From: a virus
Virus record (IMG/VR): IMGVR_UViG_3300024513_000016
Coordinates: 1 to 64,000 of that record
DNA: 64,000 nt
Reading direction: 5' to 3' (one strand)
Shown: positions 2,258-27,598 of the stretch, piece after piece
Numbering within the stretch: position 1 is the first letter of the stretch
Layout: every line of letters begins with the position of its first letter
Program-made: the position numbers and the translations under genes
Notes under the pieces: generated by a model
The model's input: only the letters and a program-made list of their open reading frames with translations
Told to the model about the DNA's origin: nothing
The model's database searches: none

Positions 2258-3109
2258 CTATTTATCAACTGCTCCAGTCATTAGTCCCGTTTTGTTGCTC
2301 TTATCACTGCTTCTCTTGCCAAACACTTTCTTATAAAGTTTTGCTCTCTTTGCTACTCCAGTCTTTTGATCTTCACCAGACATCACTGCTGTTGGTTTTC
2401 CAACTACAGTCTCACCTTTCTTTGCACCTGCTCTCTTGAGATGCTTTGGAGTATCTTTTAGTGCTTGAATAAAGTTTCTACCTCTTTCCATTTGATTATC
2501 TGGGTCACCTTTTCCGACATCACTATCACGGTGCATAATATCTACAGTATGAACTGGACCTCTCTTATTAGCACCTGATTTAGAGATTTGCTTTTTCAAA
2601 TCCTTTACTCTTCTTACACTTTCACTTGAAGGTGCAGTTTTCAATCTAGTCATTCCAGTTGGAGTTTTTCCTGCTGTTTTGAACTTACGGATTAACTGTT
2701 CTCCCTTTGCTGCTTTTCTTGCTGATGCGTGAGTACGAATGTAATGATCCTGCTCGGTGCTGCCATAATCATCTTCAGTATCTTCACTATCATAAGTTGT
2801 GTAGTCTTTTGCTTTGGTTCTCAAATCTTTGGTGGAATACTTACCAGTTCCTTTGAGTCCTGCTTTCTTTGCAATCGCAGCAGTAGATCTTTCTTGCCTT
2901 GTCATATCAGCACCACGACCACGAGCAAGAGTTACCTTGCCTCGTGTTCTTCTACCACTTCTTTCACCAGTTGAACTCTCTTCAAGTTCTTCAATATCTT
3001 CTTTCACACAACGATTATAAGTCTTCCCAAAGAGTTTTTGTGTCCCTTTCTTCTTATAACCAGGCCAGCACTTTTTTGCTTCAGAAATAAATTCCTGATA
3101 TGTCTTCAT
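2258..3109 (-). CDS. Putative head-packaged protein with T4-like capsid-targeting N-terminus
   Basis: 283 aa, very basic. The first eleven residues, MKTYQEFISEA, differ at one position from the capsid-targeting sequence I recall for T4 internal proteins (MKTYQEFIAEA), including the I-x-E cleavage site for the gp21-type prohead protease. Residues 12-37 form a small two-cysteine motif (KCWPGYKKKGTQ..FGKTYN.CV) that recurs in marine phage proteins. The rest is lysine/arginine/serine-rich and probably disordered, as in T4 internal proteins. Its start overlaps the stop of the upstream gene by ATGA, so the two are translationally coupled. Function after delivery is unknown; packaging is inferred. 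Confidence 0.82.
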   Translation of the reverse strand: MKTYQEFISEAKKCWPGYKKKGTQKLFGKTYNRCVKEDIEELEESSTGERSGRRTRGKVTLARGRGADMTRQERSTAAIAKKAGLKGTGKYSTKDLRTKAKDYTTYDSEDTEDDYGSTEQDHYIRTHASARKAAKGEQLIRKFKTAGKTPTGMTRLKTAPSSESVRRVKDLKKQISKSGANKRGPVHTVDIMHRDSDVGKGDPDNQMERGRNFIQALKDTPKHLKRAGAKKGETVVGKPTAVMSGEDQKTGVAKRAKLYKKVFGKRSSDKSNKTGLMTGAVDK

Positions 3110-3579
3110 TGTCCACCACCCATTGAACGTGATCTTTGTGCTCTCTTCAATGCAACTTTATATTCTGGGGATGGACCTGAACCAATAGGTCTTTCTCCTT
3201 TTTCTCTCTTTGCTCTTTCTATTTTTTGTTGTTCCAACTTACCAACACCTCTCTTTCTTCCAGGTGCTTCTGCACCACTTCCACCACCTCCATGTGCATG
3301 TCTCTTATAAGTTCCAAGAACTTCATAACGAGAAGCATAGGGATTAGTTGCAGTGTCAATCATCCCTTGTTTAGTTCTACCTAATGATGCTTCACGAGAT
3401 ACAGTTTTCTTTTCTGACTTTTTTAATTTCCACTTTGTATCACTACCTTCAGGTTGTCTTTCAACTCTAGCAGACTTTACAGTTGTATAAAGAGGAGTCT
3501 TTTTCTTTCCAGCAACTTTATCTTCTTTACGCATTTCGTAAAGATGTGCTTCTTCTAGAAACTCTTTAAAGGTCTTCAT
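3106..3579 (-). CDS. Putative head-packaged basic protein with capsid-targeting-like N-terminus
   Basis: 157 aa. It starts MKTFKEFLEEA, matching the T4 internal-protein targeting pattern (MKT-aromatic-x-EF) with an L-x-E cleavage site after residue 10. The mature part is strongly basic and rich in Lys, Arg and Gly, with no fold I recognise; a GGGGSG run and KRGVGKLEQQKIERAKREKG lie in the second half. It sits 27 nt after the HNH-like fusion gene and overlaps the next gene by 4 nt. A GATAAATA late promoter lies 21 nt before its ATG. Confidence 0.8.
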   Translation of the reverse strand: MKTFKEFLEEAHLYEMRKEDKVAGKKKTPLYTTVKSARVERQPEGSDTKWKLKKSEKKTVSREASLGRTKQGMIDTATNPYASRYEVLGTYKRHAHGGGGSGAEAPGRKRGVGKLEQQKIERAKREKGERPIGSGPSPEYKVALKRAQRSRSMGGGQ

Positions 3580-3599: not shown

Positions 3600-3607
3600 T
3601 ATTTATC
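3600..3607 (-). promoter_or_regulatory. T4-type late promoter variant GATAAATA
   Basis: GATAAATA on the minus strand, 21 nt before the ATG at 3579, partly inside the end of the upstream gene. Confidence 0.5.
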
Positions 3608-4626
3608 TAGGATTTTGCTTTTGCTTTTTTCTTTTGTCTTCTCACTGCTGCAGAAAGAAGTTCTTTATGAGGAATTGAACCAGAAACAATATCTTTTGTT
3701 TTTGATTCTATTTCATGTGCTCCACCCTTTCTATGATAAATTCCAGGTTTATCTGAAGGATCAGTAGATCTCTTAGCACCCATTATATTTCTTGGATGAT
3801 GTCCATGATAAACCCCTTGCGAAGCATCTTTTTTTACTCGTTCTTTCCACTCTGCATCACTCATAGATGACTTCAATTTTGAAGAATAATGTAGTGGAGT
3901 AATATGATGTGCTTCTAATCCTTTAGACTTCAATTTTCTTATTTTAGTATCTGCAGTTCTTCTTTCTTCACTCGAACTTAAATTTTCAATTCTTTCTTTT
4001 CTTCTTCCTCTTTCACCTACACCTCCAGATTTAGGTTTAAGTCTCCATTTTGGATTTTCAGTGCTGCCAGCATTATTAGCATAATAACCTGATGGAATCC
4101 CACCATGATGTTTTTCTAATTCAGATCTACTTGAAAAATATCTCTGTGCTTCAATTAAATATACTTCTTCAAAAAACTCTTTAAATGTTTTTTTCTTATT
4201 TCCCCAATTCTTTGCTCCTACTTTTCTACACTTAACTAATGCTCCAGAAGCATAAGCACTTGGCCATACACTATAACGAGATTTTACTTTATGATAACAT
4301 GCATCTTTTTCTTCAGTTGCAACCATTTTTGCTTTCCCTCTCTTATTTGGGTCTGGATCTTGACGATTCTTACGTTCAAAAGCTTTCTGCTCTTCTTCAT
4401 CAGAAAGTGCTGCTTTCATCTTGCTAGAACCACACTTCGGTTTTGTAGTTTGTCCTGGTTGTTTTGCACAAGGTTTTCCTGCATATCTTCCACCCAACTG
4501 AACCCAACCAGGTTTACCATCTGATGACTTACTTTTAGTAAACCAATCATGAAGAGAATAATCTCCAGATTTTCTACCTTCATAGATATTATCAAAATCT
4601 AAAAAAAACTCTCTAAAACCTTTCAT
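3607..4626 (-). CDS. Multidomain packaged-effector candidate: two targeting-like segments and an HNH-like nuclease end
   Basis: 339 aa that look like several modules joined. Residues 1-16 (MKGFREFFLDFDNIYE) resemble the capsid-targeting peptide. Residues 24-70 (SLHDWFTKSKSSDGKPGWV ... two Cys) and 109-142 (ACYHKVKSRYSVWPSAYASG..VKCRKVG) are two small cysteine modules that recur in marine phage proteins and have no function I know. Residues 146-160 (KTFKEFFEEVYLIEA) are a second targeting-like segment, now internal, as if two packaged proteins had fused. The C-terminal third has an HNH-like layout: EAHHITPL (239-245), YHGHHPRNI (273-281) and a later HRKGGAHE (298-305). The nuclease call is from motif layout only; activity is unproven. 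It is expressed from a late promoter variant 20 nt upstream. Confidence 0.8.
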   Translation of the reverse strand: MKGFREFFLDFDNIYEGRKSGDYSLHDWFTKSKSSDGKPGWVQLGGRYAGKPCAKQPGQTTKPKCGSSKMKAALSDEEEQKAFERKNRQDPDPNKRGKAKMVATEEKDACYHKVKSRYSVWPSAYASGALVKCRKVGAKNWGNKKKTFKEFFEEVYLIEAQRYFSSRSELEKHHGGIPSGYYANNAGSTENPKWRLKPKSGGVGERGRRKERIENLSSSEERRTADTKIRKLKSKGLEAHHITPLHYSSKLKSSMSDAEWKERVKKDASQGVYHGHHPRNIMGAKRSTDPSDKPGIYHRKGGAHEIESKTKDIVSGSIPHKELLSAAVRRQKKKAKAKS

Positions 4627-10360: not shown

Positions 10361-10663
10361 TCACATTACAATTTTTGTAGTCTCACCTGGACAAACATCT
10401 GGTGTTTCTAGATTCTGAAACATTAAATGTGGTCCATGATAATAAATGTAAACATCACTTAAATCTTCCATGGTAAGATTAGGATATTTCTTCAAAACAT
10501 CCTTCTGACTTAATCCTGAATTTGCAAGATTTGCTATAGTTTTTACTAAAACTTCAGTTCCACGAATGCATGGTTTTCCACCACAACGATTTTTTTGAAT
10601 CGTGATCCGAGGACACAAATAGGATACAGGATACTCTTTAGTAAATTCAAATTCCATTTTCAT
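10361..10663 (-). CDS. DUF433-family protein, 100 aa
   Basis: After a 20-residue lead, ITIQKNRCGGKPCIRGTEVL followed by KTIANLANSGLSQKDVLKKY and PNLTMEDLSDVYIYY is the DUF433 signature (CGGKPxIRGT, helix-turn-helix, tyrosine-rich helix). DUF433 proteins are VapB-like and often occur as antitoxins with a PIN-type toxin in bacteria; no toxin gene is visible here. The ATG at 10663 is preferred over a GTG at 10669. It overlaps the upstream gene by 17 nt. Confidence 0.85.
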   Translation of the reverse strand: MKMEFEFTKEYPVSYLCPRITIQKNRCGGKPCIRGTEVLVKTIANLANSGLSQKDVLKKYPNLTMEDLSDVYIYYHGPHLMFQNLETPDVCPGETTKIVM

Positions 10664-10916
10664 CTTCACTCAAATCTTCATTGTAAAATTCCTTGGTATA
10701 AAATTCACATCCATCGTAGAAAGATTTTTCACAATATCCAACTGCTAGTACATATGACTTAAAAAGATTAAACAATTGCCAAATAGTCATGTCATCATCA
10801 TTGGATGTAATTGTTACATTCTGATCACGCAGACTTCCCTCATAAATTTTAAGTGGAGGGTTATCATTCTTATAAATGTAAGAAAATGTGTGTGTAACTG
10901 ATGTATCGAAATTCAT
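10647..10916 (-). CDS. Conserved small protein, 89 aa
   Basis: MNFDTSVTHTFSYIYKND at the start and TIWQLFNLFKSYVLAVGYCE in the middle, a stretch I have seen in other marine phages. The ATG at 10916 is chosen because a strong Shine-Dalgarno (AAAAGGAG, 10921-10928) lies 4 nt upstream; the longer start at 10940 would lie upstream of this site. Function unknown. Confidence 0.8.
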   Translation of the reverse strand: MNFDTSVTHTFSYIYKNDNPPLKIYEGSLRDQNVTITSNDDDMTIWQLFNLFKSYVLAVGYCEKSFYDGCEFYTKEFYNEDLSEDENGI

Positions 10917-11665: not shown

Positions 11666-11833
11666 CTATTTTTCGTTGTCAAGTTCTTTTAAATAATCCG
11701 TCCACCATTTTGGATCTTTCTGACACTTCCAGTTGGGAACTTCCTTTCCCATCTCAAAATACCATTCCCATATTGCTTGATCAATAATATCTGCGACTTC
11801 AATCTTCCTCATCCTCTTTATCAACATCTGCAT
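11666..11833 (-). CDS. Conserved small protein, 55 aa
   Basis: MQMLIKRMRKIEVADIIDQA, then a cysteine and KDPKWWTDYL near the end. I choose the ATG at 11833 because GGAGGGAG lies immediately upstream at 11837-11844; in-frame ATG at 11884 or GTG at 11902 would lengthen the overlap with the membrane-protein gene to 86-104 nt. Function unknown. Confidence 0.72.
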   Translation of the reverse strand: MQMLIKRMRKIEVADIIDQAIWEWYFEMGKEVPNWKCQKDPKWWTDYLKELDNEK

Positions 11834-11990
11834 ATGCTCCCTCCACGTAAGGTCCGTGTTCTCGTTTGGCATCTTCTCTGACATAATTGATCTCCGAAGC
11901 ACTAGAGGACAACCATAAAGATACTTTCATAATCACATAAATGATTGCAAGGGGGAGAAAACATAGTGAAAGGATGATAGTATTTTTCAT
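11799..11990 (-). CDS. Small membrane protein, 63 aa
   Basis: One hydrophobic helix (about 3-28) followed by NYVREDAKREHGPYVEGAYA and an acidic DVDKEDEED end. I recognise this as a highly conserved cyanophage protein. The charged, invariant-looking tail would face the cytoplasm or periplasm and may hold the function; unknown. ATGA overlap with the HiPIP-like gene upstream. Confidence 0.88.
   Translation of the reverse strand: MKNTIILSLCFLPLAIIYVIMKVSLWLSSSASEINYVREDAKREHGPYVEGAYADVDKEDEED
11837..11844 (-). promoter_or_regulatory. Strong Shine-Dalgarno inside the upstream gene
   Basis: GGAGGGAG on the minus strand, inside the membrane-protein gene's coding sequence, 3 nt before the ATG at 11833. 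Confidence 0.65.
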
Positions 11991-12187
11991 TGATTTTTTC
12001 TGTCATATTGATGCCATTTACACCAACCATCTGGTGAGATTTTACCACTTACTGCAGTGCAAGCATTTGGAGGTCTCCACATGTTACAATTGGAACATTT
12101 TTCATTTCCTTTTGGTTCATTTTGATATTTTGCAATCGATTTAGATGCTTTTTCTTCCTCGAAAAGAAATTCTTTAAATGTTTTCAT
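11987..12187 (-). CDS. HiPIP-like iron-sulfur protein with capsid-targeting-like N-terminus, 66 aa
   Basis: Residues 21-60 resemble a high-potential iron-sulfur protein: C31-x2-C34-x8-C43-x12-C56, with NMW after the second Cys, VSGKISPDGWCKW around the fourth, and the YQ lead. The spacing is shorter than in bacterial HiPIPs. The first ten residues, MKTFKEFLFE, match the T4-type capsid-targeting peptide seen on the left-end proteins. If both readings are right, a small Fe-S electron carrier, or its apo-form, would be packaged in the head or processed by the prohead protease. It is encoded inside the early operon, with 4-nt overlaps on both sides, which argues for early expression as well. Confidence 0.8.
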   Translation of the reverse strand: MKTFKEFLFEEEKASKSIAKYQNEPKGNEKCSNCNMWRPPNACTAVSGKISPDGWCKWHQYDRKNQ

Positions 12188-12384
12188 TCATCAATTTCCC
12201 AACATTTTTCGAATTTATATCTTAGTTCGTTAAGTTTCATTTCTTCCCAATACTTTAACAGATGTTGATTTATTTCCTTCTCCTGCTCACTAAACTCTAA
12301 TCGATATTTATGTTTAATATTTATTAAATGTGCCATATCATCCAAAAAAGTAGTTGGCATATCCAAAAACTCTTCATAATCCAT
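12184..12384 (-). CDS. Hypothetical protein, 66 aa
   Basis: MDYEEFLDMPTTFLDDMAHL then a charged helix (KYRLEFSEQEKEINQHLLKY). The ATG at 12384, 2 nt after the upstream stop and with AAAGAG nearby, is preferred over an upstream TTG. Function unknown. Confidence 0.75.
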   Translation of the reverse strand: MDYEEFLDMPTTFLDDMAHLINIKHKYRLEFSEQEKEINQHLLKYWEEMKLNELRYKFEKCWEIDE

Positions 12385-12386
12385 CT

Positions 12387-12707
12387 TTAATCTCTTTGAC
12401 GCCAATCATCGGGTTTATCTTCCGTCCACCAATCTATCATATCATCAATATCATCAAATCCTCTTTTTCCAAATCTTTCGTGCCCTAATCCACCAATATC
12501 AAGTTGATTCAAAAAATCATCCATATCACCTTCTTGCATATCAGGATTTTCTGCCTTTCTCCTAGCCTGACGAAGTATAGTAGAAGCAGAACGATTTGAT
12601 TTTGCAAGTTTTTCGGCCCAAATCATGTCCTCTAAACTTACTTCTTGATGTAAAGCAATCTTTTTACAAATTGCTTCAAGACGAAGACGATATTGTGTAG
12701 ATAGCAT
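12387..12707 (-). CDS. Conserved cyanophage protein, 106 aa
   Basis: MLSTQYRLRLEAICKKIALH, DMIWAEKLAKSN, ILRQARRKAENPDM and a C-terminal DWRQRD. This is among the most conserved small proteins of cyanomyoviruses; function unknown. Mostly helical with an acidic glycine-rich middle. A TCTAAATA late-promoter variant lies 22 nt upstream. Confidence 0.88.
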   Translation of the reverse strand: MLSTQYRLRLEAICKKIALHQEVSLEDMIWAEKLAKSNRSASTILRQARRKAENPDMQEGDMDDFLNQLDIGGLGHERFGKRGFDDIDDMIDWWTEDKPDDWRQRD

Positions 12708-12728: not shown

Positions 12729-12736
12729 TATTTAGA
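12729..12736 (-). promoter_or_regulatory. Late promoter variant TCTAAATA
   Basis: TCTAAATA on the minus strand, 22 nt before the ATG at 12707, in a short gap inside the early operon. Confidence 0.45.
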
Positions 12737-18535: not shown

Positions 18536-21500
18536 TCAAGAGTTTTCTAGTAAATCTAATCTAGTTTTTAATATATCAACTTCTTCTGATAATTCCTTCA
18601 CTGCATTTACAAGAACTGGAATCATATGATCTGATGTCAGTTTTAGATTTTCTGGATCTTTTGAATCCACAATAACAGGATTTTCTCCTTCTGCTTCTAA
18701 AACATTCTGAGCACTGAATCCATATCTGCGTTTTCCTTCATCATCTTTTAATTCACCAGTTTCACGGTTTTTGAATGCATATTCAATAGGAGTAATATTT
18801 TGAAGGAATCCTCTACCGTGAGGAACAGGTCCAAAAATACACTTATCACGACAGTCAGAAACTACTGTCCAAGCAACTTGAATAAGAGCATTTGTATGAG
18901 CATTATTTCCCATAATAATGTGATTGTTTTGTGTTGTGACATTACACAATCCACCCACTCCAACTCCAGAACTACATCCAAAGAAGATATTATTGGATCC
19001 AGTGGTGTTGTTGCGACCAGCAGCAGTTCCAAAGAAGTTGTTGTAGCATCCAGTGGTGTTGCAGCAACCAGCATTAAATCCAAAGAAGTTGTTGTTGGAT
19101 CCAGTGGTGTTGGAGTAACCAGCATATCTTCCAATAAAGGTGTTGTAGCATCCAGTGGTGTTTCTGAAACCAGCACTTTCTCCAAAGAAGTTGTTGCAGG
19201 ATCCATTGGCGTTGCAGTAACCAGCACTACTTCCAAAGAAGTTGTTGTTGCATCCAGAGGTGTTAAATCGACCAGCATTACATCCAAAGAAGGTGTTGTT
19301 GGATCCAGAGGTGTTGGAGAAACCAGCACTTTGTCCAAAGAAGTTGTTGTGGCATCCAGTGGTGTTGCAGTAACCAGCACTATTTCCAATAAAGGTGTTG
19401 TAACGTCCAGTGGTGTTGTATCGACCAGCACTACTTCCAATGAAGGTGTTATTGGATCCAGTGGTGTTGGAGAAACCAGCACATCTTCCAATAAAGGTGT
19501 TAGCGACTCCAAGGGTGTTGCATCGACCAGCACTCTCTCCAAAGAAGTTGTTGAAGTTTCCAGTGGTGTTGCTGGATCCAGCAAATGGTCCAAAGAAGTT
19601 GTTGTTGATTCCAGTGGTGTTGGAGAAACCAGCACTATTTCCAAAGAAGTTGTTATTGTCTCCAAAGGTGTTGCATCGACCAGCATATCTTCCAATAAAG
19701 GTGTTGCTGTTTCCAGAGGTGTTGGAGCAACCAGCACTTAATCCAAAGAAGGTGTTATTGGCTCCAGCGGTGTTGGAGCAACCAGCACTTCTTCCAATAA
19801 AGGTGTTGTGGCATCCAGTGGTGTTGTTGCGACCAGCATTACATCCAAAGAAGTTGTTGTAGGATCCAGTGGTGTTGTATCGACCAGCATTACGTCCAAT
19901 AAAGGTGTTGTTGGATCCAGTGGTGTTGCATCGACCAGTATAACATCCAAAGAAGGTGTTGTAGGATCCAGTAGTGTTGTATCGACCAGCACCATATCCA
20001 ATAAAGGTGTTGTTAGTTCCAGTGGTGTTGCAGTAACCAGCACTAGCTCCAATAAAGGTGTTGTTGGATCCAGTGGTGTTGTATCGACCAGCAAAAGGTC
20101 CAAAGAAGTTGTTGTTAAATCCCGTGGTGTTGGAGTAACCAGCATATCTTCCAATAAAGGTGTTGTAGACTCCAGTGGTGTTGCAGTAACCAGCACTTAT
20201 TCCAAAGAAGTTGTTGTCACGTCCAGTGGTGTTTCTGAAACCAGCACTTTCTCCAAAGAAGTTGTTGCAGGATCCAGTGGTGGTGCAGTAACCAGCACAT
20301 CTTCCAAAGAAGTTGTTGTTAAATCCAGTGGTGTTGTATCGACCAGCTTTGGATCCAATAAAGGTGTTGTGGCATCCAGTGGTGTTTCTGCAACCAGTAT
20401 ATTGTCCAAAGAAGTTGTTGTTGGATCCATCGGTATTGCACTGACCAGCACAATAACCAGCAAAGAAGTTGTGTAATCCATAGCCACCACCATTTCCTGC
20501 TTCTGAACTATAGATGGTTCCACAAGAACCACTTAAAGTGAATTCTCCACTAAATGCAGATCCATTAATAAAAAGACCATTATCATTAACCTTTAGTCTT
20601 TCACAAGTACCAGCAGCAAGAACTACAGTATTTGTAAGTCCATAAGTTCCAGTATAAGTACCAATTATGAGGTTATTAGATCCTATTACTACGGAGCAAC
20701 CAGCATTACATCCAAAGAAGGTGTTGTTGGATCCAGAGGTGTTGGAGAAACCAGCACTTTGTCCAAAGAAGTTGTTGTGGCATCCAGTGGTGTTGAAGCC
20801 ACCAGCACTAAGTCCAAAGAAGTTGTTGTAGCATCCAGTGGTGTTGAAGAAACCAGCAGCATTTCCAAAGAAGGTGTTGTTGGATCCAGTGGTGTTTAAG
20901 GCACCAGCACTTTGTCCAATAAAGGTGTTGTAGGATCCAGTGGTGTTGGAGGAACCAGCACCTTGTCCAAAGAAGTTGTTGTTGCATCCAATGGTGTTGG
21001 AGCAACCAGCAGAAGGTCCAAAGAAGTTGTTGTTGAATCCAGAGGTGTTTTGGTTACCAGCCCAGCCTCCAAAGAAGTTGTTATTGGTTCCAGTGGTGTT
21101 GTTTTCACCAGCAGCACGTCCAATAAAGGTGTTGTAGGATCCAGTGGTGTTGCATCGACCAGCACAATAACCAGCAAAGAAGTTGCTGCCTCCATAACCA
21201 CCATTTCCTGCTTGTGAACTATGAATGGTTCCACAAGAACCACTTAAAGTGAATTCTCCACCACCACCACCAGTAAATGCAGATCCATTAATAAAAAGAC
21301 CACTATCATTAACCTTAAGTCTTTGGCAACTACCAGCAGCAAGAACTACAGTATTTGTAAGTCCATAAGTTCCACAATAAGAACCAATTATGAGGTTATT
21401 AGATCCTGTTACTACGGAGCAACCAGCATTACATCCAAAGAAGGTGTTGTTGGATCCAGAGGTGTTGGAGAAACCAGCACTTTGTCCAAAGAAGTTGTTG

Positions 21501-22705
21501 TGGCATCCAGTGGTGTTGTATCGACCAGCATTACATCCAAAGAAGGTGTTGTAGGATCCAGAGGTGTTGGAGAAACCAGCAGCATTTCCAAAGAAGGTGT
21601 TGTTGGATCCAGTGGTGTTTAAGGCACCAGCACTTTGTCCAATAAAGTTGTTGTAGGATCCAGTGGTGTTGGAGTAACCAGCAAAAGGTCCAAAGAAGTT
21701 GTTGCTGCCTCCACTGGTGTTGGAGTAACCAGCATTATATCCAAAGAAGGTGTTGTTGGATCCAGTGGTGTTGAAGAAACCAGCATTACATCCAAAGAAG
21801 GTGTTGTAGGATCCAGAGGTGTTGGAGAAACCAGCATAATATCCAAAGAAGTTGTTGTAGTATCCAGTGGTGTTGTTTTCACCAGCACCACGTCCAAAGA
21901 AGTTGTTATGCCTTCCAGAGGTGTTTTTGTAACCAGCACCATCTCCAAAGAAGTTGTTGTTCGATCCAGAGGTGGTGCAGTAACCAGCACATCTTCCAAA
22001 GAAGTTGTTGTTCGATCCCCAGGTGTTGTAGAAACCAGTATATTGTCCAAAGAAGTTGTTGTTGGATCCATCGGTATTGCACTGACCAGCACAATAACCA
22101 GCAAAGAAGTTGTGTAATCCATAGCCACCAGTTCCTGCTTCTGAACTATAGATGGTTCCACAAGAACCACTTAAAGTGAATTCTCCACCTGCACTAAATG
22201 CAGATGTAGTAACTCCAGTAACAAGACCCTTTGCGTTAACAGTAATGCTTGGAATTGAAGTTGAAGAACCAAAAGTTCCTACATCAGTATTAACAGTTGC
22301 AAGAGTAGTAGTAGTATTAACTGAAGTAACATCGCCAGTTAAATTAGGAATATTTGTTGTACTAGTAGCAGTACCAGTAAGACTTCCTACAAATCCACCT
22401 GAAGAAGTAATGATGCCACTAAAGTTTCCTGATGTTGCAGTGATAATACCAACAGAAATATCAGGAGTTCCAGTAAGTCCTTGAGCATTAGTAGCAATAC
22501 CTGCAGTAGTTGCATAGGTTGCTATTCCTGCTGAAGATGCATAAGTTATTGCCACATATGGCAAATTAGTCCAAGAAGTTGTTCCAGTTCCTATTTTAAA
22601 TTTATTAGTATCAAGCTCAAGTCCCAATTCTCCTTCTGCAAGAACTGGGTTTATATTGGTCCATTCTGTAGAAGATCCTCTTCTAAATTGAATTTGAGTT
22701 GCCAT
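18536..22705 (-). CDS. Giant tail-fibre adhesin of 17-residue N-T-G/F-x-G repeats with S74 chaperone end, 1389 aa
   Basis: Residues 1-50 (QFRRGSSTEWTNINPVLAEG ... KFKIGTGTTSW) are the Mtd_N-like attachment domain of phage fibres. After a short linker, about 1000 residues are made of 17-residue units of the form NTTGSYNTFFGCNAGRY, probably a beta-helix. The units form three blocks (from about residues 174, 483 and 718), each opened by GEFTLSGSCGTI; the first two end in NNLIIGxYxGTYGLTNTVVL. The last ~110 residues (SDCRDK..., ITPIEYAFKN, YGFSAQNVLEAE, coiled end) are a peptidase-S74 intramolecular chaperone that cuts itself off after trimer assembly. Unusually rich in Cys and Asn. Probably a receptor-binding fibre with variable repeat number. 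Confidence 0.9.
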   Translation of the reverse strand: MATQIQFRRGSSTEWTNINPVLAEGELGLELDTNKFKIGTGTTSWTNLPYVAITYASSAGIATYATTAGIATNAQGLTGTPDISVGIITATSGNFSGIITSSGGFVGSLTGTATSTTNIPNLTGDVTSVNTTTTLATVNTDVGTFGSSTSIPSITVNAKGLVTGVTTSAFSAGGEFTLSGSCGTIYSSEAGTGGYGLHNFFAGYCAGQCNTDGSNNNFFGQYTGFYNTWGSNNNFFGRCAGYCTTSGSNNNFFGDGAGYKNTSGRHNNFFGRGAGENNTTGYYNNFFGYYAGFSNTSGSYNTFFGCNAGFFNTTGSNNTFFGYNAGYSNTSGGSNNFFGPFAGYSNTTGSYNNFIGQSAGALNTTGSNNTFFGNAAGFSNTSGSYNTFFGCNAGRYNTTGCHNNFFGQSAGFSNTSGSNNTFFGCNAGCSVVTGSNNLIIGSYCGTYGLTNTVVLAAGSCQRLKVNDSGLFINGSAFTGGGGGEFTLSGSCGTIHSSQAGNGGYGGSNFFAGYCAGRCNTTGSYNTFIGRAAGENNTTGTNNNFFGGWAGNQNTSGFNNNFFGPSAGCSNTIGCNNNFFGQGAGSSNTTGSYNTFIGQSAGALNTTGSNNTFFGNAAGFFNTTGCYNNFFGLSAGGFNTTGCHNNFFGQSAGFSNTSGSNNTFFGCNAGCSVVIGSNNLIIGTYTGTYGLTNTVVLAAGTCERLKVNDNGLFINGSAFSGEFTLSGSCGTIYSSEAGNGGGYGLHNFFAGYCAGQCNTDGSNNNFFGQYTGCRNTTGCHNTFIGSKAGRYNTTGFNNNFFGRCAGYCTTTGSCNNFFGESAGFRNTTGRDNNFFGISAGYCNTTGVYNTFIGRYAGYSNTTGFNNNFFGPFAGRYNTTGSNNTFIGASAGYCNTTGTNNTFIGYGAGRYNTTGSYNTFFGCYTGRCNTTGSNNTFIGRNAGRYNTTGSYNNFFGCNAGRNNTTGCHNTFIGRSAGCSNTAGANNTFFGLSAGCSNTSGNSNTFIGRYAGRCNTFGDNNNFFGNSAGFSNTTGINNNFFGPFAGSSNTTGNFNNFFGESAGRCNTLGVANTFIGRCAGFSNTTGSNNTFIGSSAGRYNTTGRYNTFIGNSAGYCNTTGCHNNFFGQSAGFSNTSGSNNTFFGCNAGRFNTSGCNNNFFGSSAGYCNANGSCNNFFGESAGFRNTTGCYNTFIGRYAGYSNTTGSNNNFFGFNAGCCNTTGCYNNFFGTAAGRNNTTGSNNIFFGCSSGVGVGGLCNVTTQNNHIIMGNNAHTNALIQVAWTVVSDCRDKCIFGPVPHGRGFLQNITPIEYAFKNRETGELKDDEGKRRYGFSAQNVLEAEGENPVIVDSKDPENLKLTSDHMIPVLVNAVKELSEEVDILKTRLDLLENS
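18960..22110. repeat. 51-bp coding repeats, three blocks
   Basis: About 60 tandem 51-bp units that encode the 17-residue repeats. Near-identical 44-bp block starters lie at 20505-20548, 21216-21259 and 22143-22186. The base periodicity leaves several other frames open by chance, on both strands. Confidence 0.85.
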
Positions 22706-25504: not shown

Positions 25505-27598
25505 TTAAATTGCCGAAATTGAAATCCCTTCAAAACTAACCCCAGAAATAGTAGTAGTACTATCAAATGCATAGGGATTAAAAAGTACTCTACTCGTAGA
25601 ACCTCTTAAATTACCATTACCTCTAAGGTTGTATGAGTCACCAGCAGAATCAGGATAATCCGTTAGTGCATTATAAGTCTGTGACCAATAACCAACTTCA
25701 TTTGGATCAGGATATGGATCTGACATGTTTATGTCTCTACTTCCATATAATTCTAACCAATCGTGAACATCACTTTGACTTGCACTTCTATTTTGTTGCA
25801 GATACAATGCTATAACTGAGCAAGCATTTGGACCAGCTGAACTTGTTCCATTGAACCAAGTATCATAAAAACTTGTATTATCTTGTCTTACAAAATCTTC
25901 ATAAGTAGAAGTATAACCAGCAGCCATAGTCATTTCTGCAGGTGCCCAAACATTAATCATTGGACCATTTGCAGAATAACAAACTTTTCTGACAGAATAA
26001 GGAGCAGATCCTTGTCTAGAACCTACAGGTTCTACACCACAATCTAAAGCACCAACTCGAATTGTTCCTTGCTTTCGAGTCTCAACATTTGCACCACCTT
26101 TTTGAACTCCACCAACTCGATTAATATAATTAGTACTAGTGGAATACCAATTATTATAATCTATATCATTAACATCCGAAAGTTTTTGATTGGTATTTCC
26201 AGCAGAAGAAACTACTATACATCCTGCAGCAATTGCATTTTCTGCTCCAGCATTATCAGCACCAGCAGGTGAAAGAGGAGAATACTGTCCAGTTCCAGAA
26301 TAAGCAGTAGTGCTAGTAGTAACTCCCGTGTTATAAGTAAAATACTTATGATTCCTACATGCTCCAGAGTTTGCTGGTGGATTTAATAGACTCGCATTTC
26401 CTACATAAGTTAATGTAGAACCCCTATATCCATGAGTATAAGTAGTGCCACTATTATTACCTGTAGATGAAGTCCACCCATAACTATTATTAATTAATGT
26501 TGGATCTGGATCTCCATTTTGAGATATTTTTTTTGCATTGTGGAACATAGCACAAATATTTAATGCTATCGATGCATCAATAATTCCCCCAACACCACCT
26601 AAAGCAATTCTGAATCCCCATACATTACATTCATATGCCAATCCAAAAGATTTTCCTCCAATTTGAGAAGCACATGCAGTTCCATGCCCATCTACAAGTT
26701 GATTTCCATTGGAATTTGGTGTTTTAGTTGAAGTATGAGCTAAAGTATATAAAGAACTAAATGTGGCATACCCAATACCACTAAATTGTGGAGATCTATT
26801 GGATGGATTTGACCACCAACTATGTGCAGCAGTAGTTGCAATTCCAACTCCCAAATTTACTCCATCTACGATTTTTGTATAAGTTAATCCTCTAGAATTA
26901 AAATATTCAGGATCTACTTTGTAAGGACCATCTAATATAACATCTTTAACTCTAGTAGATCCATCAGCATTTCTAAATTCTGGATGTAAAGGAGTTACAC
27001 CAGAATCTATAATTACACAATCAACATTAGCACCAGTAACTGTATAGTCTATGTCAGTGTCTACTCGTGTTGTAGATGCAATACCAACACCACGAAAAGG
27101 TTCACTGGAAGGATTATTTACAAAAAGATGTCCCCAATTTGATCTTACACCATTTGTATGAGTTACTGTATGAAATCTATTTGTTGCCATGAAGGGGGCA
27201 GCAGTAAATCCTGGTTTATTAAAAGCTACATCTTTACCATACCTTCTTAATACAAAAAGTGATTTAGGTTGAGGATATATGGATGGATCTAAAACTACAC
27301 TTTCAACTTTAGGATGAGTCCTGAGGATTTCAGCCTCTTCAGGACTCATAGTATAAACAGAGGTTCTCAATGAATATTCTTCAATATTTTCACATTCAAT
27401 TTTTCGATTAGGAATACCATCAATTTCATTTTCATTCACAATGTAATTATGAATTTCTTCCCAATCATTCTCATCCTTAACTATTACTTTATATGAATCA
27501 ATTTCATTTGGAGTATATTCTATTGGAACAGTATCTGGAGAAATCTCTATGATACGTTCACGTTCTAATTGGTTTTCACTAAGAGATATATTTTGCAT
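25505..27598 (-). CDS. Subtilisin-like serine protease (S8), 697 aa
   Basis: All catalytic elements are present: D198 in VIIDSGVTPLHPEF, H305 in DGHGTACASQIGG, oxyanion N468 in VVSSAGN and S586 in NGTSSAGP. Residues 35-105 (YKVIVKDENDWEEIHNYIV ... AEILRTHPKVESVVLDP) look like an inhibitor-I9-type prodomain. The C-terminal 100 residues are a beta-rich extension. No signal peptide or membrane helix is seen; the gene lies in the late tail-fibre cluster, so the protein is probably on the virion. Possible jobs are maturation of fibres or digestion of host surface protein; both are inference. Confidence 0.92.
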   Translation of the reverse strand: MQNISLSENQLERERIIEISPDTVPIEYTPNEIDSYKVIVKDENDWEEIHNYIVNENEIDGIPNRKIECENIEEYSLRTSVYTMSPEEAEILRTHPKVESVVLDPSIYPQPKSLFVLRRYGKDVAFNKPGFTAAPFMATNRFHTVTHTNGVRSNWGHLFVNNPSSEPFRGVGIASTTRVDTDIDYTVTGANVDCVIIDSGVTPLHPEFRNADGSTRVKDVILDGPYKVDPEYFNSRGLTYTKIVDGVNLGVGIATTAAHSWWSNPSNRSPQFSGIGYATFSSLYTLAHTSTKTPNSNGNQLVDGHGTACASQIGGKSFGLAYECNVWGFRIALGGVGGIIDASIALNICAMFHNAKKISQNGDPDPTLINNSYGWTSSTGNNSGTTYTHGYRGSTLTYVGNASLLNPPANSGACRNHKYFTYNTGVTTSTTAYSGTGQYSPLSPAGADNAGAENAIAAGCIVVSSAGNTNQKLSDVNDIDYNNWYSTSTNYINRVGGVQKGGANVETRKQGTIRVGALDCGVEPVGSRQGSAPYSVRKVCYSANGPMINVWAPAEMTMAAGYTSTYEDFVRQDNTSFYDTWFNGTSSAGPNACSVIALYLQQNRSASQSDVHDWLELYGSRDINMSDPYPDPNEVGYWSQTYNALTDYPDSAGDSYNLRGNGNLRGSTSRVLFNPYAFDSTTTISGVSFEGISISAI

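Follow-up and report, generated by a model that had tools for sequence, protein, structure and literature searches.

Bacteria are known to export high-potential iron-sulfur proteins (HiPIPs) to the periplasm as carriers; the head of phage T4 holds a cargo made up mostly of anti-restriction or unknown proteins. One criterion for the HiPIP class is a [4Fe-4S] cluster whose 3+/2+ couple lies between +50 and +500 mV. In PioC, the cluster ligands are Cys22, Cys25, Cys34 and Cys47, and HiPIPs follow a rule of a conserved N-terminal Tyr, a Trp before the fourth cysteine (Cys4) and an aromatic residue 2-3 residues past it (PMC7462912). The ligands of Iro are Cys24, Cys27, Cys36 and Cys49, with the aromatics Tyr14, Phe30 and Tyr48 stabilising the cluster (PMC10654088). 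On the phage side, the first ten residues of T4 internal protein IPIII, its capsid-targeting peptide (CTS), are enough for packaging; residues 4 and 7 control targeting and residues 8 and 10 control processing by gp21, which cuts after L/I-x-E and is prevented from doing so by an Asp at position 10 (PMC9026906).

We analysed a window of 64,000 nucleotides from a freshwater cyanobacterial virus (positions 1 to 64,000 of the IMG/VR virus record IMGVR_UViG_3300024513_000016), to which all positions below refer unless stated otherwise. On its minus strand, an ATG-started gene at 11987-12187 (stop included) encodes the 66-residue product MKTFKEFLFEEEKASKSIAKYQNEPKGNEKCSNCNMWRPPNACTAVSGKISPDGWCKWHQYDRKNQ. 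Cysteines 31, 34, 43 and 56 of this protein form the pattern C-x2-C-x8-C-x12-C with the VSGKISPDGWCKW core context, as the original prediction had read from the sequence. Among PDB entries, the top match is the Rhodopseudomonas palustris TIE-1 protein PioC (PDB 6XYV; E=1e-10), which shares the cysteine pattern and aligns over 48 residues without gaps, pairing Cys31 (codon 12095-12097, minus) with PioC Cys22, Cys34 (12086-12088, minus) with Cys25, Cys43 (12059-12061, minus) with Cys34 and Cys56 (12020-12022, minus) with Cys47; the Tyr and Trp positions and the mature start match as well. With the Pfam HIPIP model (PF01355), which has a cut-off of 22, the 66-residue protein scores 22.8 bits, and all 37 aligned relatives match the model too. 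The NCBIfam Iro model (NF041615) also aligns without gaps (E=4e-11), at 43 bits where its equivalog cut-off requires 100; we therefore dropped an identity as Iro iron oxidase and did not file the protein as such. Its cysteine spacing and three aromatics do match those of Iro from Acidithiobacillus ferrooxidans, but unlike Iro it has neither a Tat leader nor iron-oxidation neighbours. AlphaFold confidence is low (pLDDT 60.7 for the full protein, 51.8 for the mature one), and a Foldseek search with the 60.7 model returned just two matches, both HiPIPs (6xyv and 1isu; E 0.015 and 0.067). By family membership, the phage protein is a PioC/Iro-type HiPIP domain with a predicted cluster, which bears out the HiPIP-like domain proposed originally. 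The same proposal had called the protein shortened; this was wrong, because PioC and Iro have the identical, canonical cysteine spacing.

Among phage isolates, only Synechococcus phage S-SRM01 has an orthologue (QPX48026.1, filed as a hypothetical protein), which is 83% identical over the whole protein, while IMG/VR yielded 88 relatives in a first scan and 97 in a second. From the fetched loci we aligned 55 distinct nucleotide copies. All four cysteines are invariant in this set, as are Y21, W37 and W55 (the latter directly before Cys56), and W58 is kept in 53 of the 55. Y21, W37 and W55 correspond to Iro Tyr14, Phe30 and Tyr48; Y21, W55 and W58 take the places of the N-terminal Tyr, the Trp before Cys4 and the aromatic after Cys4 in the HiPIP rule. 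Across the 55 copies, dN/dS is 0.09 (0.089) in the leader and 0.04 (0.041) in the core, ratios that are approximate because the counts were pooled over sequence pairs with no tree behind them and synonymous sites are near saturation (dS 1.3-1.5). Leader and core are both under purifying selection. A tblastn alignment beginning at residue 14 had hinted at a leaderless HiPIP in S-SRM01, a candidate we rejected since the gene itself reads the leader MKSFQEFLFE.

Codons 1-10 (12158-12187, minus) spell MKTFKEFLFE, which resembles the ten-residue leaders of T4 IPI, IPII and IPIII in positions 4, 7, 8 and 10 and in the L/I-x-E site. Each of these four CTS determinants (PMC9026906) finds its counterpart in the HiPIP leader, and none of the 55 copies departs from F, Y or L at position 4, F or Y at position 7, L or I at position 8, and E at position 10. 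A cut by the S77 protease is predicted after Glu10 (L-F-E) and would release a mature HiPIP domain of 56 residues (codons 11-66; 11990-12157, minus; pI 9.0, 6.4 kDa). What follows the leader is different from T4, where the internal-protein cargo is anti-restriction or unknown: here it is a HiPIP domain, and a far more conserved one. The strict leader motif occurs in 4 of 2226 ATG-started ORFs of the window and S-SRM01 combined, against 0.000 expected from shuffling residues 2-41. Two of the strict matches are further minus-strand genes of the window, at 3106-3579 (MKTFKEFLEE) and at 2258-3109 (MKTYQEFISE), so that the peptide is indeed near-identical to the starts of left-end proteins, as first noticed. 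The protein of 2258-3109 additionally shows a weak match over its first 20 residues to phrog_2667, an internal head protein, and the ORF at 3607-4626 opens with a looser CTS-like leader. Position-specific conservation and the excess of strict matches both uphold the reading of a capsid-targeting-like peptide.

Cellular relatives from Nitrosomonas, Methylobacter, Salinisphaera and Rhodopseudomonas also carry N-terminal leaders, mostly of the twin-arginine type. The phage HiPIP shares its mature start with the relatives that have Tat-like leaders, KASKAQVKYQDEPKGNEKCSNC in Nitrosomonas halophila being matched by KASKSIAKYQNEPKGNEKCSNC in the phage. No Tat or Sec features were found in MKTFKEFLFE; PioC reaches the periplasm by Tat export, and in the phage protein a CTS-like leader stands in the place of that signal. 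The simplest account is that a bacterial HiPIP gene was acquired and a CTS then took over from its export leader, a direction that we infer. Because the export signal has been replaced by a head-loading label, the redox protein is probably part of the virus particle and is injected along with the viral DNA.

The HiPIP gene belongs to a minus-strand operon whose first gene (12387-12707) encodes a 106-residue phrog_507 protein, a family found in 460 phage records, almost all of them cyanophages. phrog_507 lies directly upstream of HiPIP in S-SRM01 and in 48 of the 52 distinct copies examined. In the window, a 73-residue ORF (12184-12405, minus) sits between the two genes and overlaps both by a few bases; it is missing in the 35 of 52 copies in which the HiPIP start overlaps the phrog_507 stop, and S-SRM01, which shares the operon partner, has this direct overlap too. 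Downstream, the HiPIP stop is overlapped by a phrog_2832 ORF (11799-11990, minus; 63 residues, putative membrane protein). DSL-LC03, whose phrog_507 protein is 90.6% identical, has another gene behind it and yielded no tblastn match to the HiPIP query, which makes HiPIP an accessory gene. A late-promoter-like TAAATA (12729-12734, minus) precedes phrog_507 by 27 bases, and the element recurs ~26-27 bases before phrog_507 in 47 of 48 copies, compared with 2.8% of random 70-base stretches. Late virion expression of the operon is only suggested by this, because TAAATA also stands before some non-structural or metabolic genes of S-SRM01 (CP12, petF, uvsW). A Peptidase_S77 prohead protease is encoded by S-SRM01 and three further HiPIP-bearing contigs; none was found in HiPIP's own record, which is an incomplete 112-kb fragment. 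The S-SRM01 protease gene (135233-135883; L087:35233-35883) is filed as 'primosomal protein' and matches Peptidase_S77 at E=8e-37.

Virion proteomes of two cyanophages bear on the meaning of such leaders. In S-CREM2, where 52 of 219 proteins were detected in virions (PMC10665884), all three strict CTS-like proteins are among them (gp6 SAM hydrolase, gp13 and gp154 cytidylyltransferase; p=0.013, on three proteins only), as is the gp14 kinase with a looser, GTG-started CTS-like leader. Neither of the two strict CTS-like proteins of S-SZBM1 was found among the 30 proteins detected in its virions. Pooling both phages associates the leader with virion detection at p=0.048, which lends moderate support to the idea that CTS-like leaders mark virion proteins in cyanophages. 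As a side observation, S-CREM2 gp12 (L144:7704-10313), reported as a Cas9-like nuclease in the virion (PMC10665884), contains the CTS-resembling stretch LRFASFMAE in its N-terminal region.

Profile scans revealed further, more divergent phage HiPIPs. One (L215) starts with MKTLNDFLDE and lies directly behind a CTS-type gene starting MKTFQEFISE, three others (L175, L176, L187) carry the leader MKSFQQFTE, and one (L161) starts MIFNRIVEFLLE on a 193-kb contig that also encodes a T4-type protease and Gp23. The original prediction had named homologues lacking the N-terminal peptide as evidence against it. All 55 distinct close copies keep the leader, and the cellular relatives show Tat-like ones in its place; a single far viral subfamily (L217-L219) was found to be without one. 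HiPIPs also occur in giant phages (LR756508.1, L133/L134, L156, L157 and L159). These share with the phage HiPIP the lead-in KxSKEDxEYQ...KCxNC and a GWC or AWC, but differ in having a longer Cys2-Cys3 loop and in being embedded in larger proteins. In one of them, a 1491-residue protein (L133:3973-8448), LigD_N (phosphoesterase), DNA ligase, HiPIP and NUDIX domains are joined, the HiPIP part scoring 16.6 bits and thus below the Pfam cut-off.

Our best explanation, to which we assign a probability of roughly two-thirds, is that a lineage of T4-like cyanophages has redirected a PioC/Iro-type HiPIP, whose destination is now the phage head and no longer the periplasm, with packaging via the CTS. 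The protein would bind a [4Fe-4S] cluster, be brought into the prohead core by its CTS and be cut after Glu10 by the prohead protease; the basic 56-residue one-electron carrier would then remain among the packaged DNA and be ejected with it. Packaging through the CTS as such is likely, judging from the HiPIP ligands and aromatics, the leader, the late-promoter-like operon and the S77 protease. The competing view that HiPIP is a late-expressed auxiliary redox gene of the infected cell, its product unpackaged and its peptide merely CTS-resembling, draws on the TAAATA elements that also drive S-SRM01 metabolic genes, on other small redox proteins of cyanophages (e.g., ferredoxin and glutaredoxin) and on the two S-SZBM1 proteins that went undetected. 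It is improbable given a leader conserved exactly at the CTS positions (dN/dS 0.09), strict matches that are far over chance and associated with virion detection in S-CREM2, and diverged HiPIP subfamilies that keep CTS-like leaders of their own. Alternatively, the protein might be packaged but use its four cysteines to bind zinc or a structural cluster, with its HiPIP fold serving as a scaffold that has no redox role; five relatives do give weak zinc-finger matches (best 0.0005). Yet the HiPIP-specific aromatics Y21, W37, W55 and W58 are conserved besides the cysteines, and the PDB and fold searches yield HiPIPs rather than zinc fingers, so that we give this variant little credence.

As for what a packaged HiPIP might do, we tentatively prefer redox protection of the packaged or incoming DNA, with the protein acting as an electron reservoir against oxidative damage; we prefer this DNA-guard role because the mature protein is basic (pI 9.0) and a distant relative is fused with DNA-repair and NUDIX domains, and we hold it at somewhat worse than even odds. 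The main rival in our ranking is an early effector, packaged, injected and active in the host cytoplasm, where it might take part in redox signalling, quench a defence that is oxidative or based on Fe-S, or inhibit a host enzyme. Precedents for this exist in the T4 internal proteins, diverse injected defence proteins with nothing but the CTS in common (PMC3012670), and in the SAM hydrolase and kinase among the CTS-like virion proteins of S-CREM2; arms-race proteins, however, usually diverge fast, whereas the HiPIP core has a dN/dS of 0.04 and keeps HiPIP-specific residues, and no host target is known, which leaves the effector a rather unlikely reading. Least probable of all is the role put forward originally, the supply of electrons to host photosynthesis at an early stage of infection, which found no support. 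The PSI donors plastocyanin and cyt c6 act in the thylakoid lumen, while the phage HiPIP has no lumen, Sec or Tat signal and, if injected, would arrive in the cytoplasm. PioC does donate electrons to a photosynthetic reaction centre (PMC7462912), and psbA/psbD-type genes are present in S-SRM01 and four HiPIP-bearing contigs, with petF and hli in S-SRM01 as well; the partner of PioC is, however, a purple bacterial centre and not PSI. Moreover, the PioC residues touching that centre (N17, A19, K20 and R48) are mostly changed: K, N and E stand in place of N17, A19 and K20, and only R48 stays basic (K57). The missing lumen-directing signal and the loss of three of the four contact residues together make this role very unlikely.

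We found no description of a phage HiPIP in the open-licence literature. HiPIP and CTS are both known kinds of element; their combination appears to be new. If our reading is correct, this would be, within the reach of our searches, the first case of an Fe-S redox protein destined for a phage head, and whether virion redox chemistry protects or prepares DNA becomes a question that can be put to the cultured phage S-SRM01. The divergent phage HiPIPs with other leaders, together with the LigD/ligase/HiPIP/NUDIX fusion, suggest a wider theme. That several T4-like and giant lineages carry CTS-installed HiPIPs in their heads as a genome redox system is conceivable but doubtful.

Some minor observations concern the N-termini of other phage proteins and the remaining window. 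The giant-phage HiPIPs of L156 and L157 start with a helical-looking peptide, L..(V/I)IR.E....(L/V).E. On the T4-like contig L161 (1373-6029), several genes share an opening peptide of the type MN[KN]D[IS][HE]L[LI].EAY, which may represent another class of N-terminal targeting peptide; the window ORF at 46-1446 starts MDSQDLRNLYEAYTNVYE. By eye, a 697-residue ORF among the tail genes (25505-27598, minus) shows the subtilisin-like motifs DSG, GHGT and GTSSAGP, and a 102-residue ORF (10361-10669, minus) resembles a DUF433-type protein. Finally, a 1389-residue protein (18536-22705, minus) contains many NNFFG- and NTTG-type repeats, which give rise to spurious long ORFs in other frames.
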